Source of the DNA: a bacterium
GTDB taxonomy: Bacteria > UBP15 > UBA6099 > DSWB01
Direction: 5' to 3'
Length of the DNA stretch: 8,246 nucleotides
NCBI GenBank assembly: GCA_020061125.1
Contig: JAGUYV010000358.1
Coordinates: 1 to 8,246 of the forward strand
The notes below the pieces were generated by a model. That model did not search any database and had not been told where the DNA came from. It was given only the letters and a program-made list of their open reading frames with translations. The position numbers and the translations under genes were made by a program. Each line of letters begins with the position of its first letter. Positions within the stretch are counted from its first letter, which is position 1. Below, one piece after another: positions 1,815 to 8,246 of this stretch.

Positions 1815-2873
1815 TTATCCCTGAATAAGTTTCTTTAAATCTTCGGGGTTGAAGGAACGGTTGATGGCGTCCTGGTAAGTGATCAGCCCTGACGAGTACA
1901 GTTCCTTGAGAGCCTGGTCCATGGTCTGCATGCCTTCCTTGTTGCCGGTCTGGATGGCGGCGGGGATCTGGTGCGCCTTGTTCTCGCGGATAAGGTTGCG
2001 CACGGCCGGGGTGGCCACGAGGATCTCGACCGCGGGCACGCGGCCCACGCCGCCGGTGCGCGGCATCAGTTGCTGCGACAGCACCGCCTCCAGGTTCATG
2101 GACAACTGCGTGCGGATCTGCGTCTGCTGGTGCGGCGGGAACACATCCACGATGCGGTCAATGGACCCCGCGGCCGTGTTCGTGTGCAGGGTGGCGAACA
2201 CCAGGTGGCCGGTTTCCGCGATGGTGATGGCCGCCTCCATGGTCTCGAGGTCGCGCATTTCGCCGATCAGGATGACATCCGGGTCCTCGCGCAGGGCCGA
2301 GCGCAGCGCGCGGGTGAAGCTCTTGGTGTCCAGCTCCAGCTCGCGCTGGTTGATGATGCAGTTCTTGTGCCGGTGCAGATACTCGATGGGGTCCTCGATG
2401 GTGATGATGTGCGCGTCGCGGGTGCTGTTGATGAGGTCAATGCACGCGGCCAGGGTGGTGGACTTGCCGCTGCCCGTGGGACCAGTCACCAGAATCAGCC
2501 CGCGCGGGCGCTGGGTCAGCTTCTTGATCACCTGGGGCATGCGCAAATCGTCCAGGGTGGGGATCTTCGAGGGAATGGACCGCATGACCGCGCTGATGGA
2601 CCCGCGCTGAAGGAAGATGTTGACCCGGAAACGGCCAAGCCCGGCCACGCCGTAGGAAAAGTCCAGCTCGAAGTTGTTCTCAAACGCCTGCTTCTGCTGG
2701 TCCGTAAGCATGCTGTAAATGATCTTCTGCGCCAGGGACGGGGTGATGCGCTCCTCGTCCGATTTCACGATGCGCCCGTCCACGCGGAACATGGGCGGCA
2801 GCCCCGCCGTGATGTGCAAGTCCGACGCCTTGCGCGTCACCGCTTTGTGCAACAGTTCATCAATGTCTATCAT
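1815..2873 (-). CDS. pilT: Type IV pilus retraction ATPase PilT
   Basis: This 352-residue protein has the length and all the motifs of PilT, the hexameric cytoplasmic ATPase that depolymerises pili for twitching motility and DNA uptake. An N-terminal PAS-like domain (SDLHITAGLPPMFRVDG, residues 17-33) precedes the RecA-like core. The core shows Walker A GPTGSGKS (131-138), Asp box TIEDPIEY (158-165), Walker B with VILIGEMRD (200-208) and His box HLVFATLHTNTA (223-234). The C-terminal AVRNLIRE (290-297) matches the AIRNLIRE motif specific to retraction ATPases, which argues against PilB. The ATG at 2873 gives the usual MIDIDELL start, with AAGGA about 11 nt upstream. pilC follows after 133 bp; pilB and pilins are not in the window. 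A paralogue such as PilU is possible but less likely given GEMRD and the pilC neighbour. Confidence 0.97.
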   Translation of the reverse strand: MIDIDELLHKAVTRKASDLHITAGLPPMFRVDGRIVKSDEERITPSLAQKIIYSMLTDQQKQAFENNFELDFSYGVAGLGRFRVNIFLQRGSISAVMRSIPSKIPTLDDLRMPQVIKKLTQRPRGLILVTGPTGSGKSTTLAACIDLINSTRDAHIITIEDPIEYLHRHKNCIINQRELELDTKSFTRALRSALREDPDVILIGEMRDLETMEAAITIAETGHLVFATLHTNTAAGSIDRIVDVFPPHQQTQIRTQLSMNLEAVLSQQLMPRTGGVGRVPAVEILVATPAVRNLIRENKAHQIPAAIQTGNKEGMQTMDQALKELYSSGLITYQDAINRSFNPEDLKKLIQG

Positions 2874-3067: not shown

Positions 3068-5467
3068 ATGGCGTCGTTTTCCAGCATTTTGAAACACGAA
3101 CGGCTCGGCAGATATATTGAACAGATCATGGAGCAGAACGCACGCACGACGCGCCTCGACGGCTGGTTTATTGCGCGCGAAATCATGATGGAGCGGTTGC
3201 GTGAGTTGCCCGCGGACCTGCACCCGGCCGCGCGCCAGGCCGAACTGCTCGCCGCTGTGTGCGCGCGCCTCCCCATCCGCATCCGCCACGGTGAAATTTT
3301 CGCGGGCGCCGAATCCGACGCGTTCGCGCGCTCATACGCACTCATCAATCCCGGATTCAAAATCGAATCCTTCGAGGGCTACTGCGACGAGGATGCGGTG
3401 TACAACGACATCGAGCCGGACGCAGTGTTCACAAAGGAACGCATCGGGATCGTGCGCAAGTTCTGGGCCGCGCAACCGTTCGCCAGGGCCGTGTCCGAAG
3501 TGTATGAAAAAACCGGCGCGGAAACCCGCGAAGTGGTGTACTTTGTGGAGCGCGTGACCGGGCACACGATCCCGGATTTCTCGGACGCGCTGCAATGCGG
3601 TATAGACGAACTGTTGGTGAGGCTTGACGAGAAACGGCGGCGCGAGCCGGAGCGCGCGGATTATTTCGCGGCCATGCACACGGCTCTGGAGGCGGCGGTC
3701 ACGCTGGCCGAACGCTATGCGCTCCTGGCGCAGGACATGGCCGCCGCCGAATCCGATCCCGGGCGCCGCGCCGAACTCGAACTCATGGCCGCAACCCTGC
3801 TCCGCGTGCCCCGCCACGGCGCGCGCAATCTGTTCGAGGCCATCCAGTCCTTCATCATCCTGTGGCAGGCCTTGAACCTCGAGCAGGCGCCCAATCCGTT
3901 CGCGTTTTCCATCGGCAACCTGGACCGCATTCTGCAGCCGTATTTCGACATGCAGCCCGTGGACATGGATCTGGCCGTGCAGCTCGTGCGCCACCTCCTG
4001 GCGTTCTTCTGCGTGGGGGACCGGAACTGGGCCATTTCGCAGAACATCATGGCGGGCGGCATGGACGAACGGGGCAACGACCTCACCTGCGGCATGACCC
4101 ACGCCGTGATCCGCGCCTTCGAGGAATCCAACTACGCGCAGCCCAACCTGTCCGTGAAACTGCACCCAGGAACGCCCGAGGGTGTTTACATGGGGCTTGC
4201 ACGGTTCATGTTCGAGTTCGGGCACAGCACGCCGTCGTTCTTCAACGACCCGGTGATGTTCCGCGCCATCGGAAACAAAGGGGTGCGGGATGAAGACAAG
4301 CCCCTGTACGCCGCGGCCGGGTGCCAGGAGCCGCTGGTCATGGGCCGCGAGTCCGCCAACACCACCAACTCGTGGCTCAACCTGGCCAAGGTCCTGGAAC
4401 TGGCCGTGACCGGCGGCACATCCGCCATTACCGGCGAACGCGTGGGTCCGGCATGGGATGAGCTGGGACTCGGGGACAAGCCCCCGCACAGCGCGGAATC
4501 CGTGGAAAAAGCGTTTTTTGCGTACCTGGATTATTTTCTGCCGCGCATGGCCGAAGCTGCCAACGCCTGCACCCGCGCCCTGGCCCTGCTGCCCGTGCCG
4601 TTCCACTCCGCGTTCATGGGCGCCCGGGACACGGGCATTGACATGCGCGACTGCACGGAGCAGGGCGTGGCCTACAACGGCTCCGGGTGCCTGATTCACG
4701 GCATGGCCAATGTCGCGGATTCGTTTTCCGCGCTGCATTATCTGCAAGAGCATGCCCAAGAAGCGGGCTTCACCGTCGGCGATGCGCTTCAAGCGGCGGT
4801 CTCGAATTTCGAGGGCCGCGAGGAGCTGCGCGATCTGCTGCTCACGAGGCCGCCCAAATTCGGGAACAACGATCCGGCTGCGGACGCGCGCGCGCAGGAG
4901 CTGGTCGGGGCCGTGAACCGCCGCGTGCTGGGGCTGAAAAATCCGCTCGGCAACCCGTTCTCGCCGGACTGGAGCACGCCGAGCACGAATCTGCTGTACG
5001 GCTACTGGACAGGGGCCACGCCCGACGGCCGCGCCGCACGCGCGCCCCTGGCGTACGGACTGGATCCGGCCGTATCCGCCGCGCGCAGGGGCCTGCTCGC
5101 GCGCGTGAACTCGCAGGCCGGCCTGGAATACGATCTCATGACGGGCGGCAGCGCCTCGGGCATGAGCATCAACCCCGACGCCCACAACGGCAAATCCGTG
5201 GAAGACCGCGCGCGGTATCTGCGGGAAGTCATGAGCTTCGTGTTCGACTACAACCACGGCCGCAACGGACAGCTTGGCCTGCAATATGTGTATTTCAATG
5301 TGTTCTCACAGGACCGGCTGCGCCATGTCATGGAGCATCCCGAGGAATACCCCAACCCCGTGCTGGTGCGCATCCACGGCCAGTACGGCGACGCGCGCCA
5401 CCTGTCACCGGACATACTCGGCGGCGACATCATCCCGCGCCTGGACCCGCTGTCCACGGCGTTTTGA
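3068..5467 (+). CDS. Glycyl radical enzyme of the pyruvate formate-lyase-like superfamily, substrate unknown
   Basis: This 799-residue cytoplasmic protein has the full fold of the PFL-like superfamily. The PFL-like barrel spans about residues 10-655, with VTGHTIPDF (163-171), DRNWAISQNIMAGGMDERG (318-336) and QPNLSVKLHPGTPEG. The thiyl-radical loop is AGCQEP, with catalytic Cys419 and Glu421, followed by CTEQGVAYNGSGC (529-541) and GMANVADS. The C-terminal glycyl radical domain ends in VRIHGQYGDARHLSP. Gly771, 28 residues from the end, is the expected radical site. The single Cys followed two residues later by Glu is the signature of eliminase members (diol/glycerol dehydratase, choline lyase), not of pyruvate formate-lyase, which has two adjacent Cys. 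The aromatic residue normally after the radical Gly is replaced by Gln. Start 3068 is favoured over 2873 by the promoter, ribosome binding site and N-terminus. No activating enzyme is adjacent, so it must be encoded elsewhere. The reaction cannot be named. Confidence 0.9.
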   Translation: MASFSSILKHERLGRYIEQIMEQNARTTRLDGWFIAREIMMERLRELPADLHPAARQAELLAAVCARLPIRIRHGEIFAGAESDAFARSYALINPGFKIESFEGYCDEDAVYNDIEPDAVFTKERIGIVRKFWAAQPFARAVSEVYEKTGAETREVVYFVERVTGHTIPDFSDALQCGIDELLVRLDEKRRREPERADYFAAMHTALEAAVTLAERYALLAQDMAAAESDPGRRAELELMAATLLRVPRHGARNLFEAIQSFIILWQALNLEQAPNPFAFSIGNLDRILQPYFDMQPVDMDLAVQLVRHLLAFFCVGDRNWAISQNIMAGGMDERGNDLTCGMTHAVIRAFEESNYAQPNLSVKLHPGTPEGVYMGLARFMFEFGHSTPSFFNDPVMFRAIGNKGVRDEDKPLYAAAGCQEPLVMGRESANTTNSWLNLAKVLELAVTGGTSAITGERVGPAWDELGLGDKPPHSAESVEKAFFAYLDYFLPRMAEAANACTRALALLPVPFHSAFMGARDTGIDMRDCTEQGVAYNGSGCLIHGMANVADSFSALHYLQEHAQEAGFTVGDALQAAVSNFEGREELRDLLLTRPPKFGNNDPAADARAQELVGAVNRRVLGLKNPLGNPFSPDWSTPSTNLLYGYWTGATPDGRAARAPLAYGLDPAVSAARRGLLARVNSQAGLEYDLMTGGSASGMSINPDAHNGKSVEDRARYLREVMSFVFDYNHGRNGQLGLQYVYFNVFSQDRLRHVMEHPEEYPNPVLVRIHGQYGDARHLSPDILGGDIIPRLDPLSTAF

Positions 5468-5472
5468 TGGTT

Positions 5473-6936
5473 TTATTTGAGGAGCCTCACGCGCAGCGCT
5501 GTGCGCGCATCGCGCCCGGCCTTGAACCGGTCGTCAATCCTTTTCCCGATGATCCAGATGATCTGCCCGCCGCACACCAACAGCGGCGCGTTCCGCCTCT
5601 GCGCGCGCGGCGTTTTCTCGTCCACAAAGAAATCCTGCAGCTTCTTGTCGGAAGCCATGCCCAGGGGGCGGAACCTGTCCCCCGCCACCGGTGTGCGGAC
5701 TGACAGCGGCTCCTTTACGCTATGCGCGTCGAAGTAAGCGGTGTCCGGATCGGGATTCCCGAATATTGCGGCGCGGTCCGCGGACACAATCGAAAATTCC
5801 AGGGTCACGCCGAGCGGCGCGCAATGCTGCACGACCGGATCCGCTCCTTCCCCGTTAAGCAACTCCGCGAGCCGCGCCTGATCCAGAGCGCATTCGAGGT
5901 CCAGGCTCCCGGTTTCGAGGGTGTCCCGGCTTGAGGCAAACACGATTTGCTCATAACCGCGCACGGCGGTCACGCCGCCGGGCAGTTCCACGGTGTGGCC
6001 GGTTCCGCCGTGTTTCACGGCATGCGCCAGGTCCATCACATGCTGTTGCCGCAGGCCTGGCGCAGGGCTGGCCGCGGCGGTTTCATAATACGCCAGAACG
6101 AGCGCGCGCCGCAGCAGCGCATCGGGCAGTGCGGCCAGTTTCGAGAGATGAAGATGCATTTCTCCCGGCGCTCGCGAAGCTGCAGCCTCGCCCAGAGCGC
6201 GCGCCGCCTCCTGTTCGAGATAATCGCTGTCTGCGCGCAGAAGTTGCGAAAGGGCGAACAGGCTGTGCCCGGCGCGCGGATTGAATTCCTTTTCGAGCAG
6301 GGGCATGAGTGTGTGGCGCACGCGGTTGCGGTCGTGCCGCTCGTCCGCGTTGGTTGCGTCCTCGCGGAACTCCAGACCGTTTGCGCTCATGTACTCGCGC
6401 ACGAGCGTGCGCGGCGCGGCCAGCAGGGGCCGGACGATGTTCCCCGAACGAAAAGCCATGGCGGCCAGCCCGCGCAGGGACGCGCCGCGCAACAGGCGCA
6501 GCAGCATGGTCTCGGCCTGGTCGGACAGAGTGTGAGCCGTGGCGATTCTCTGCGCGCCCAGGGCTTCAAGCGCACGATCGTAAAACGCCATGCGCTGCTC
6601 CCGGCACGCCTGTTCGAGCGACGGCCCGCCAGGTGCGAGCATGCTCGGGACATCTACGGTTTCGGTGAAAAATTCCAGTCCGTTCGCCGCGGCCAGCCCG
6701 CGCACGAACTCCTGATCCGCGTCCGCATCAGCCCCGCGCACGCCGTGGTTCAGATGCGCCACGCACAGGCACACGCCGAATTCCCCCCCCAGCCGTGTCA
6801 TGGCGTGCAGCAGGCACACGGAATCCGCGCCCCCGGACACGGCCAGGGCCACCCGTGAAACCCCGGGCGCAAACAGCGCGTGCTCCGAGGCCGCGCGCCG
6901 GATGATGTCGAGAATGTCCTGCCCGCTCTGCGTCAT
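5473..6936 (-). CDS. tilS: tRNA(Ile)-lysidine synthase TilS
   Basis: TilS uses ATP and lysine to convert C34 of the CAU-anticodon tRNA(Ile) to lysidine, so that it reads AUA and no longer AUG; it is normally essential. The 487-residue protein shows the N-type PP-loop SGGADS (34-39), HLNHGVRG (61-68), TAHTLSDQAETMLLRLLRG (133-151) and EDATNADERHDRNRVRHTLMP (192-212; the DxSN..RNRVR region). A TilS C-terminal tRNA-binding domain runs from about 400 to 487, with DRFRPLGMASDKKLQDFF (420-437) and WIIGKRIDDRFK (461-472). Length is within the family's upper range. The ATG at 6936 is the first in-frame start after the preceding gene; no ribosome binding site precedes it, and an extended -10 box lies only 7 nt upstream. 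It converges on the glycyl radical enzyme with a 5-bp gap. Confidence 0.96.
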   Translation of the reverse strand: MTQSGQDILDIIRRAASEHALFAPGVSRVALAVSGGADSVCLLHAMTRLGGEFGVCLCVAHLNHGVRGADADADQEFVRGLAAANGLEFFTETVDVPSMLAPGGPSLEQACREQRMAFYDRALEALGAQRIATAHTLSDQAETMLLRLLRGASLRGLAAMAFRSGNIVRPLLAAPRTLVREYMSANGLEFREDATNADERHDRNRVRHTLMPLLEKEFNPRAGHSLFALSQLLRADSDYLEQEAARALGEAAASRAPGEMHLHLSKLAALPDALLRRALVLAYYETAAASPAPGLRQQHVMDLAHAVKHGGTGHTVELPGGVTAVRGYEQIVFASSRDTLETGSLDLECALDQARLAELLNGEGADPVVQHCAPLGVTLEFSIVSADRAAIFGNPDPDTAYFDAHSVKEPLSVRTPVAGDRFRPLGMASDKKLQDFFVDEKTPRAQRRNAPLLVCGGQIIWIIGKRIDDRFKAGRDARTALRVRLLK

Positions 6937-6979: not shown

Positions 6980-7729
6980 TTATTCGGGAATTGCGCTTGC
7001 GGACGCGAACCGCGGCTCGTGCAGGGGCAGCAGGATGTCCGCGGCTTCCTTGACCTTGAGCATGATGTCGTAGGCCTGCGCGGGATTCACACTCGTGCCG
7101 GGGGGAATGACTTCCATGTCCAGGGCCAGAATCTGCCGGGGCGGGAAAAAATTCTCTGTGATCACGCAGAACCCGGTGATCACGGCCAGCCCGCCCGCGG
7201 TGTCCACGAACACGCTCATGCCGCCTTCTGTGTGCGCCGGTGTGTGCACCATGCGCACGCCGGGCGCGATGTCCGTGTCCTTTTCCACGAGCTTGAACTG
7301 GCCGCGCGATTCCGGCTCCAGAATGTAGTCTTCCATGTAGCGGAAATCCAGGGGGTGCGGGTCGTGCGCGTGTTCGAGTTCCGCGGGATGCGCGTATATG
7401 GTTGCGTTAACGCATTTTTCGTCGTTTTCGCAGTGGTCGTTGTGCAGGTGGGTGTGAATCACGATGTCTATGTCCGCCGGGGCCAGGCCGTGGCGCGCCA
7501 GGCCTTCCTCGAAGGTGAAAATCTTCCCGCCGATGTTCTTCTCCCGGTCCGGGGATTGTATGGGCATCATCTCGCCTGTGTCCACGAGGATTCTCGGCCC
7601 CGCGCCCTCGATGTACCATGCATAAATGGGAATGGTGTACGGGGTTCCGTAATCGTGCTGGTAGGTCATCATGCCCTTGTCGAAAACCTTGGTTCCCATG
7701 ACGATGGGGCGGATTGTGCACAGAGCCAT
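6980..7729 (-). CDS. Metallo-beta-lactamase-fold hydrolase, AHL-lactonase-like
   Basis: This 249-residue protein has the MBL fold. Metal-binding motifs are HLHNDH (94-99, the HxHxDH signature), TPAHTEGG (H166) and LPLHEP (H237). The beginning (CTIRPIVMGTKVFDKG, then IPIYAWYIEGAGPRILVDTG) resembles proteins annotated as N-acyl homoserine lactonase family, which are soluble, monomer-sized hydrolases. The position where the fold usually has the metal-bridging Asp (a Gly-Asp pair) reads TGFC (185-188), so Asp is replaced by Phe with Cys next to it. This makes true lactonase activity uncertain. The ATG at 7729 is well supported by GGGAGGA with an 8-nt spacer. It lies between radC and tilS on the same strand, 43 bp before tilS; nothing in the context shows its substrate. 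Only a weak TTGCAG-17-TAAGTT promoter is visible upstream. Confidence 0.85.
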   Translation of the reverse strand: MALCTIRPIVMGTKVFDKGMMTYQHDYGTPYTIPIYAWYIEGAGPRILVDTGEMMPIQSPDREKNIGGKIFTFEEGLARHGLAPADIDIVIHTHLHNDHCENDEKCVNATIYAHPAELEHAHDPHPLDFRYMEDYILEPESRGQFKLVEKDTDIAPGVRMVHTPAHTEGGMSVFVDTAGGLAVITGFCVITENFFPPRQILALDMEVIPPGTSVNPAQAYDIMLKVKEAADILLPLHEPRFASASAIPE

Positions 7730-7843: not shown

Positions 7844-8246
7844 TCAATCGAAAACGCCGCGTTCGCGCATGCTGGCGAAGCGGCCGTTGCCTCCAATGAC
7901 GATGTGATCGAGCACCTCGATTCCGAGCATGGCGCCGGCTTTGCGGAACTCGCGGGTCACGGCGATGTCGTCCGCGCTCGGCTCGGGGTCGCCGCTGGGG
8001 TGGTTGTGGGCCAGAACCACGGCGGCCGCGGCCTCGCGCACGGCCTCGCGGAAGGTTTCGCGCGGATGCAAAACGGTGCTGTTCAGAGACCCCTCGGAGA
8101 TCTGCATGACCTTGACCACTTCGTTCCTGGAGTTGAGCAGCAGGATTTTCATGACTTCCTTTTTGAGGTGCTGCATTTCCGCGCGGAGCAGGCTTGCGGC
8201 GTCCTCGGGGCAGGTGATGCAGGGGCGCGCGCCGTCGCGCCACGAC
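7844..8246 (-). CDS. radC: RadC family JAB/MPN-domain protein, C-terminal part (cut by window edge)
   Basis: The frame stays open to the right edge of the window, so the N-terminal part (normally a helix-hairpin-helix region) is missing. The visible 133 residues are the JAB/MPN domain of RadC. They run from ITCPEDAASLLRAEMQHLKKE through GSLNSTVLHPRETFREAVR and VVLAHNHPSGDPEPSADD to VLDHIVIGG and the C-terminal RERGVFD. The zinc motif is complete: the Glu of KKEVMK, His-x-His, seven residues, then Ser-x-x-Asp. Despite its name, RadC has no confirmed DNA-repair role; the family resembles JAMM metalloproteases and is often near mobile or competence genes. An internal ATG at 8176 exists, but the family homology upstream of it shows that it is not the start. 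Confidence 0.93.
   Translation of the reverse strand, partial: SWRDGARPCITCPEDAASLLRAEMQHLKKEVMKILLLNSRNEVVKVMQISEGSLNSTVLHPRETFREAVREAAAAVVLAHNHPSGDPEPSADDIAVTREFRKAGAMLGIEVLDHIVIGGNGRFASMRERGVFD

Follow-up and report, generated by a model that had tools for sequence, protein, structure and literature searches.

A predicted glycyl radical enzyme of a small, previously unnamed branch, with its radical glycine kept in a rebuilt loop

The gene and its surroundings

The window, by which we mean the whole stretch of 8246 nucleotides analysed here, is contig C248 of a draft genome (G000; 4.1 Mb in 513 contigs, 79% complete). Its main feature is an open reading frame (3068–5467, plus strand; MASFSS...LDPLSTAF) for a putative glycyl radical enzyme (GRE) of 799 residues. 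The frame opens with an ATG at 3068, with GGGGGAA before it. The protein combines a PFL-like domain (PF02901, 350 bits for a cut-off of 24.3) with a Gly_radical domain whose score is just over the threshold (PF01228, 28.5 bits for 22.2). The gene stands alone between two unrelated neighbours, a divergent upstream gene for a PilT-like ATPase (1815–2873, minus strand; PF00437) and the convergent downstream gene tilS (5473–6936, minus strand; TIGR02432 over cut-off), and the window holds no activase gene.

Further downstream, a gene for a protein of the metallo-beta-lactamase fold (6980–7729, minus strand) lies between tilS and a radC-like gene. It resembles lactonases acting on AHL or pyridoxolactone, with scores of at most 77 bits against cut-offs of 325–375. 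Located beyond tilS and on the other strand, it was set aside as a pathway partner of the GRE; among the related GRE loci inspected, we noticed none with a lactonase. The RadC-like frame (7844–8176, minus strand; 110 residues), whose start is truncated or cut by the contig end, matches positions 105–211 of the 212 in the NCBIfam RadC model, hence its C-terminal half alone. As for GREs at large, the genome comprises six genes that retain their C-terminus and one cut by a contig end, against four to six per genome in its sisters of the order. The other GREs of the window genome with a C-terminus present (at least five) all display GY[SN]A-type loops.

The radical loop and the clade that carries it

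The published fingerprint of GREs, RVXG[FWY] (PMC11528403), is regarded as nearly universal and serves to detect members of the superfamily. The window GRE departs from it: its radical loop reads VRIHGQYGDARHLSPDIL, with RIHGQ at the place of the motif, and three relatives that we name the sister trio have RIHGT. Yet the fingerprint is an aid to identification rather than the chemistry itself, and its failure marks the protein as a variant. Because the domain, the glycine, the cysteine and an activase are present, the protein is filed in the superfamily as a GRE.

The first-pass annotation had pointed to this loop, and VRIHGQYGDARHLSPDILGGDIIPR is indeed found where it had been located, residues V767–P781 (counted from the ATG at 3068) corresponding to 5366–5410. 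The loop in its wider extent, LVRIHGQYGDARHLSPDIL (residues 766–784; 5363–5419, plus strand), belongs to the longest invariant run of the alignment with the two closest relatives, which differ from it by synonymous codon changes. The predicted radical residue, Gly771 (5378–5380, plus strand), aligns with the catalytic glycine of the other GREs examined; it is kept, as had been noted, 28 residues from the C-terminus, and it is invariant in the clade described below. That a glutamine occupies the aromatic position was right for +1, but this is partly a shift: the aromatic residue is found at +2, with Gln772-Tyr773 (5381–5386, plus strand) in the window and Thr-Phe in the sister trio. The longer stretch before the DIIPR motif was also correctly seen, this motif starting at +16 from the radical glycine versus +15 in PflD or YbiW. 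The extra residue maps to a region around G785/G786 (5420–5440, plus strand), before and into DIIPR, and it is absent from the RIHGTFVN loops of the sister trio as well as from other GREs. The suggestion of a differently shaped loop is supported, at the level of sequence, by these alignments. As for the second glycine, Gly774, it is present in the loop, and one might imagine that the radical has moved to an alternative residue such as this one. We think this very improbable: Gly771 is invariant and, because three sister members have a valine in place of Gly774, the latter is not a general radical site, nor a candidate across the clade.

Close homologues with an ordinary motif, which would betray a sequencing error, had been another matter of concern in that annotation. 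What was found instead is that G001 and G005, which represent two further genera of the window's order (public contigs JAJRTR010000108 and JAKLIR010000164), encode the identical loop in orthologues that are 60–62% identical overall. In the alignment of the three proteins the longest invariant run spans 21 residues, PVLVRIHGQYGDARHLSPDIL, while no more than 52% of the residues of the window protein are shared by all three. At the level of the genes, any two of the three show synonymous differences at 11–14 of the 20 loop codons. An identical loop written with that many silent differences implies strong purifying selection on the loop itself. That the loop would be a normal one spoiled by sequencing, assembly or a frameshift is an idea that a single contig from a draft in 513 pieces might invite, but it is already refuted by these relatives, since two other genera encode the same loop with different codons; moreover, the other two reading frames over the region give no GRE loop. 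We grant it practically no credence.

The search for relatives covered a survey of 386 genomes and the phylum of one match. It yielded three further members from other lineages, the sister trio: G307 (54% identical), G061 (52%, truncated at the edge of its contig) and G386 (49%). Their loops, RIHGTFVN[FL]LDL, are of normal length with phenylalanine at +2. A maximum-likelihood tree separates the six GREs, as one clade (support 100/100; stem length 1.91 changes per site), from 33 others. The latter comprise PflB, PflD and YbiW of Escherichia coli, HypD, GrpM and paralogues from the order, and in all of them the +1 residue is tyrosine except for one phenylalanine and one cysteine. Because the branches are long, the placement of the clade next to any neighbour in the tree is unsafe. 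No member was found in 195 genomes of one phylum and three of another; scans of viral contigs returned one partial ordinary GRE but no clade member, and a scan of genome contigs gave no relative beyond the contigs of G001 and G005. These surveys are a sample of genomes, and the clade may be larger. In the literature searched, whose coverage excludes most subscription journals, we found no description of a RIHG[QT][YF] clade. As judged from sequence comparison, the window GRE is a member of a small branch of the GREs, without a name so far, in which the radical glycine is kept while the surrounding loop has been rebuilt.

A matching activase and the genes nearby

A gene for a radical-SAM activase adjoins the GRE gene in four of the six loci: L013 (G005), where the two genes are convergent, L071 (G307), L044 (G061) and L074 (G386). 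In the window genome (G000:C345:8835-9872) and in G001 (contig C64) the orthologue stands on another contig, so that each of the six genomes has one. The six activases form one clade (support 100/98), and those scanned (from L071, L044 and G001) are all over the cut-off of TIGR02494. All six keep CX3CX2C, and their motif reads GCNFxCxWC versus mostly GCPLxCxWC in the ordinary activases of the set. Across the 386 genomes, strong matches to this activase (E of 1e-76 or better) are confined to the five carriers of the GRE, the next match being at 3.6e-53; G386, which was found apart from that survey, also has the pair. Conversely, the four genomes of the order that lack the GRE contain only activase paralogues, at 38% identity or less. 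The possibility that this is a distinct clade with an activase of its own, raised in the first-pass annotation, is thus borne out.

The same annotation had considered a member that no longer carries a radical. Such a protein would retain the GRE fold, having lost radical chemistry for some other role, and several features might be read in this way. The fingerprint is broken at +1, the window is without an activase gene, and, in the strand that precedes the Gly loop (QxN or QxT), the usual glutamine is replaced by Tyr742 (5291–5293, plus strand). This tyrosine is present in all six members, at a position where the comparison GREs have glutamine, with the exceptions of methionine in one PFL-like protein and asparagine in PflB. 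Against this stand the invariance across the clade of Gly771, Cys419 and Glu421, and a loop that is the most constrained stretch of the protein. Above all, a matching activase is retained in every carrier and, among the 386 genomes, occurs only with the GRE, which argues strongly against loss of the radical; this co-occurrence is our chief ground for thinking that activation of the GRE takes place in the cell. We therefore see a protein without a radical as quite unlikely. For an enzyme that is activated, the reshaped loop (RIHG-[QT]-[YF], with a one-residue insertion in the order of the window) is probably adapted both to the matching activase and to a changed interface between the glycine and the cysteine.

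A hint about the substrate comes from other neighbours. An FGGY sugar kinase gene lies directly upstream of the GRE gene in L013, where 17 bases separate the two, and in L071. Within the order, the three genomes with the GRE all contain an orthologue of the L013 kinase (100, 56 and 49% identity), while in the four that lack the GRE the matches do not exceed 29%. With only about 30% identity between the L013 and L071 kinases, the link may correspond to two separate associations. In the window genome neither the activase nor the kinase is linked to the GRE. Given the two loci where an FGGY kinase gene is next to that of the GRE, and the parallel occurrence of kinase and GRE among genomes of the order, a carbohydrate would be our best guess for the substrate.

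Locus L071 continues with a gene for a GH38-domain protein and, past a gene for a GntR-type regulator, a gene for a protein with an L-fucose isomerase C-terminal domain (L071:8852-10291, plus strand), the match of which to sulfoquinovose isomerase is weak (42 of 700 bits). Its position near the kinase–GRE–activase operon makes it a clue to what the GRE acts on. The idea that the GH38-like genes near L071 and L070 represent one and the same partner was rejected: they are too dissimilar, with about 21% identity over part of their length. In G001, the kinase orthologue is immediately followed by a gene of the PRA-isomerase fold (L109:10284-10967, plus strand), a member of the TrpF family; no other trp gene was noticed in that stretch.

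Active site, proposed reaction and known systems

The Cys loop of the window GRE contains the expected catalytic cysteine. Cys419 (codon 4322–4324) opens the Cys419-Gln420-Glu421 motif (4322–4330, plus strand), a Cys-x-Glu pairing the cysteine of the thiyl radical with an acid/base glutamate, which is invariant in the clade and aligns with the dehydratase-type GREs. His166 (3563–3565, plus strand) aligns with the active-site histidine of glycerol dehydratase (1r8w), and is shared by most other GREs and by the clade members of full length, five in number. An AlphaFold2 model of the protein, built on an alignment of its own sequence with two relatives, has a mean pLDDT of 46.9, too low for the model to be of use.

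We infer from this arrangement a course of events of the usual kind. Gly771 would lose a hydrogen to the dedicated activase (encoded at G000:C345:8835-9872). The resulting glycyl radical would oxidize Cys419 to a thiyl radical, and the latter would then take a hydrogen from the substrate. Glu421, possibly together with His166, would assist the loss of a leaving group, as in dehydratase- or lyase-type GREs. The most credible reading, which we hold with high but not full confidence, is that of an active GRE from an uncharacterized clade, equipped with a dedicated activase, using Gly771/Cys419 radical chemistry and probably working with the FGGY kinase on a sugar, a polyol or a sugar phosphate. 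In short, the protein is probably not dead but functional, catalysing a reaction that would be new and may have a sugar as its substrate. The chances seem even to us for a bolder proposal, namely a GRE subfamily where a reorganized loop, the change from glutamine to tyrosine in the preceding strand and a co-evolved activase go with an undescribed reaction, probably on a carbohydrate, and which screens based on the fingerprint miss.

A clade with its glycine, its cysteine and its dedicated activase, yet with a broken fingerprint, would show which part of the loop is needed for radical storage. Such a clade also offers a natural test of how the +1 aromatic residue contributes to activation, and suggests that uncultured bacteria have a reaction still to be described.

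Among known systems, the best match of the clade profile to a solved structure is the PFL2 or B12-independent glycerol dehydratase type (1r8w, E of 1.9e-100), which has the same PFL-like domain, Cys-x-Glu, place of the radical glycine and counterpart of His166, although it is distant and simply ranks first among many remote matches. An ordinary dehydratase of one of the known types, acting on glycerol, propanediol, hydroxyproline or sulfopropanediol with a harmlessly drifting loop, might be suggested by this kinship, as the best solved relatives are 1r8w and other dehydratases, and by the retention of Cys-x-Glu and His166. But the loop is conserved rather than drifting, and the RIHG[QT][YF] of the clade contrasts with the RV-x-G-[FWY] of that type. 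Furthermore, the scores of the window protein lie far below the cut-offs of the NCBIfam equivalogs (HypD, CutC, HpsG/HpfG, IAD, HPAD, PFL1 and PflD), none of which is reached, with a best value of 202 of 1000 bits, while TIGR01774, for the PFL2/glycerol dehydratase subfamily, gives 264 bits when 678 are required. Finally, the active-site ligands Asp447, His281 and Ser282 of 1r8w, the first of which binds the substrate, align with Thr433, Phe278 and Ala279. With these ligand positions changed, the substrate should differ and, with Asp447 replaced by threonine, the diol-type binding site is not conserved. An ordinary dehydratase is therefore unlikely.

YbiW and PflD, which open the ring of sugar phosphates in carbohydrate catabolism (PMC12441222), are possibly analogous as to the type of substrate, but they differ from the clade in their normal GYSA loops, in being fed by a PTS rather than associated with an FGGY kinase, and in sequence (about 26–27% identity). 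Another departure from the fingerprint is seen in a GRE-like protein encoded by plasmid Mpl of the alphaproteobacterium Novosphingobium sp. PP1Y (L081:289-2781, plus strand): its loop has Gly-Cys (VRIGGCSAYF) and, in the alignment used, a glycine replaces the glutamate of Cys-x-Glu. A broken fingerprint combined with a cognate activase is also found in the aminoacyl radical enzymes (AAREs), GRE homologues known largely from MAGs, each of which has its own activase (PMC11528403). The window GRE is not an AARE because Gly771 is kept: AAREs put alanine, serine or threonine in place of the glycine, whereas the clade keeps the glycine and alters what surrounds it.
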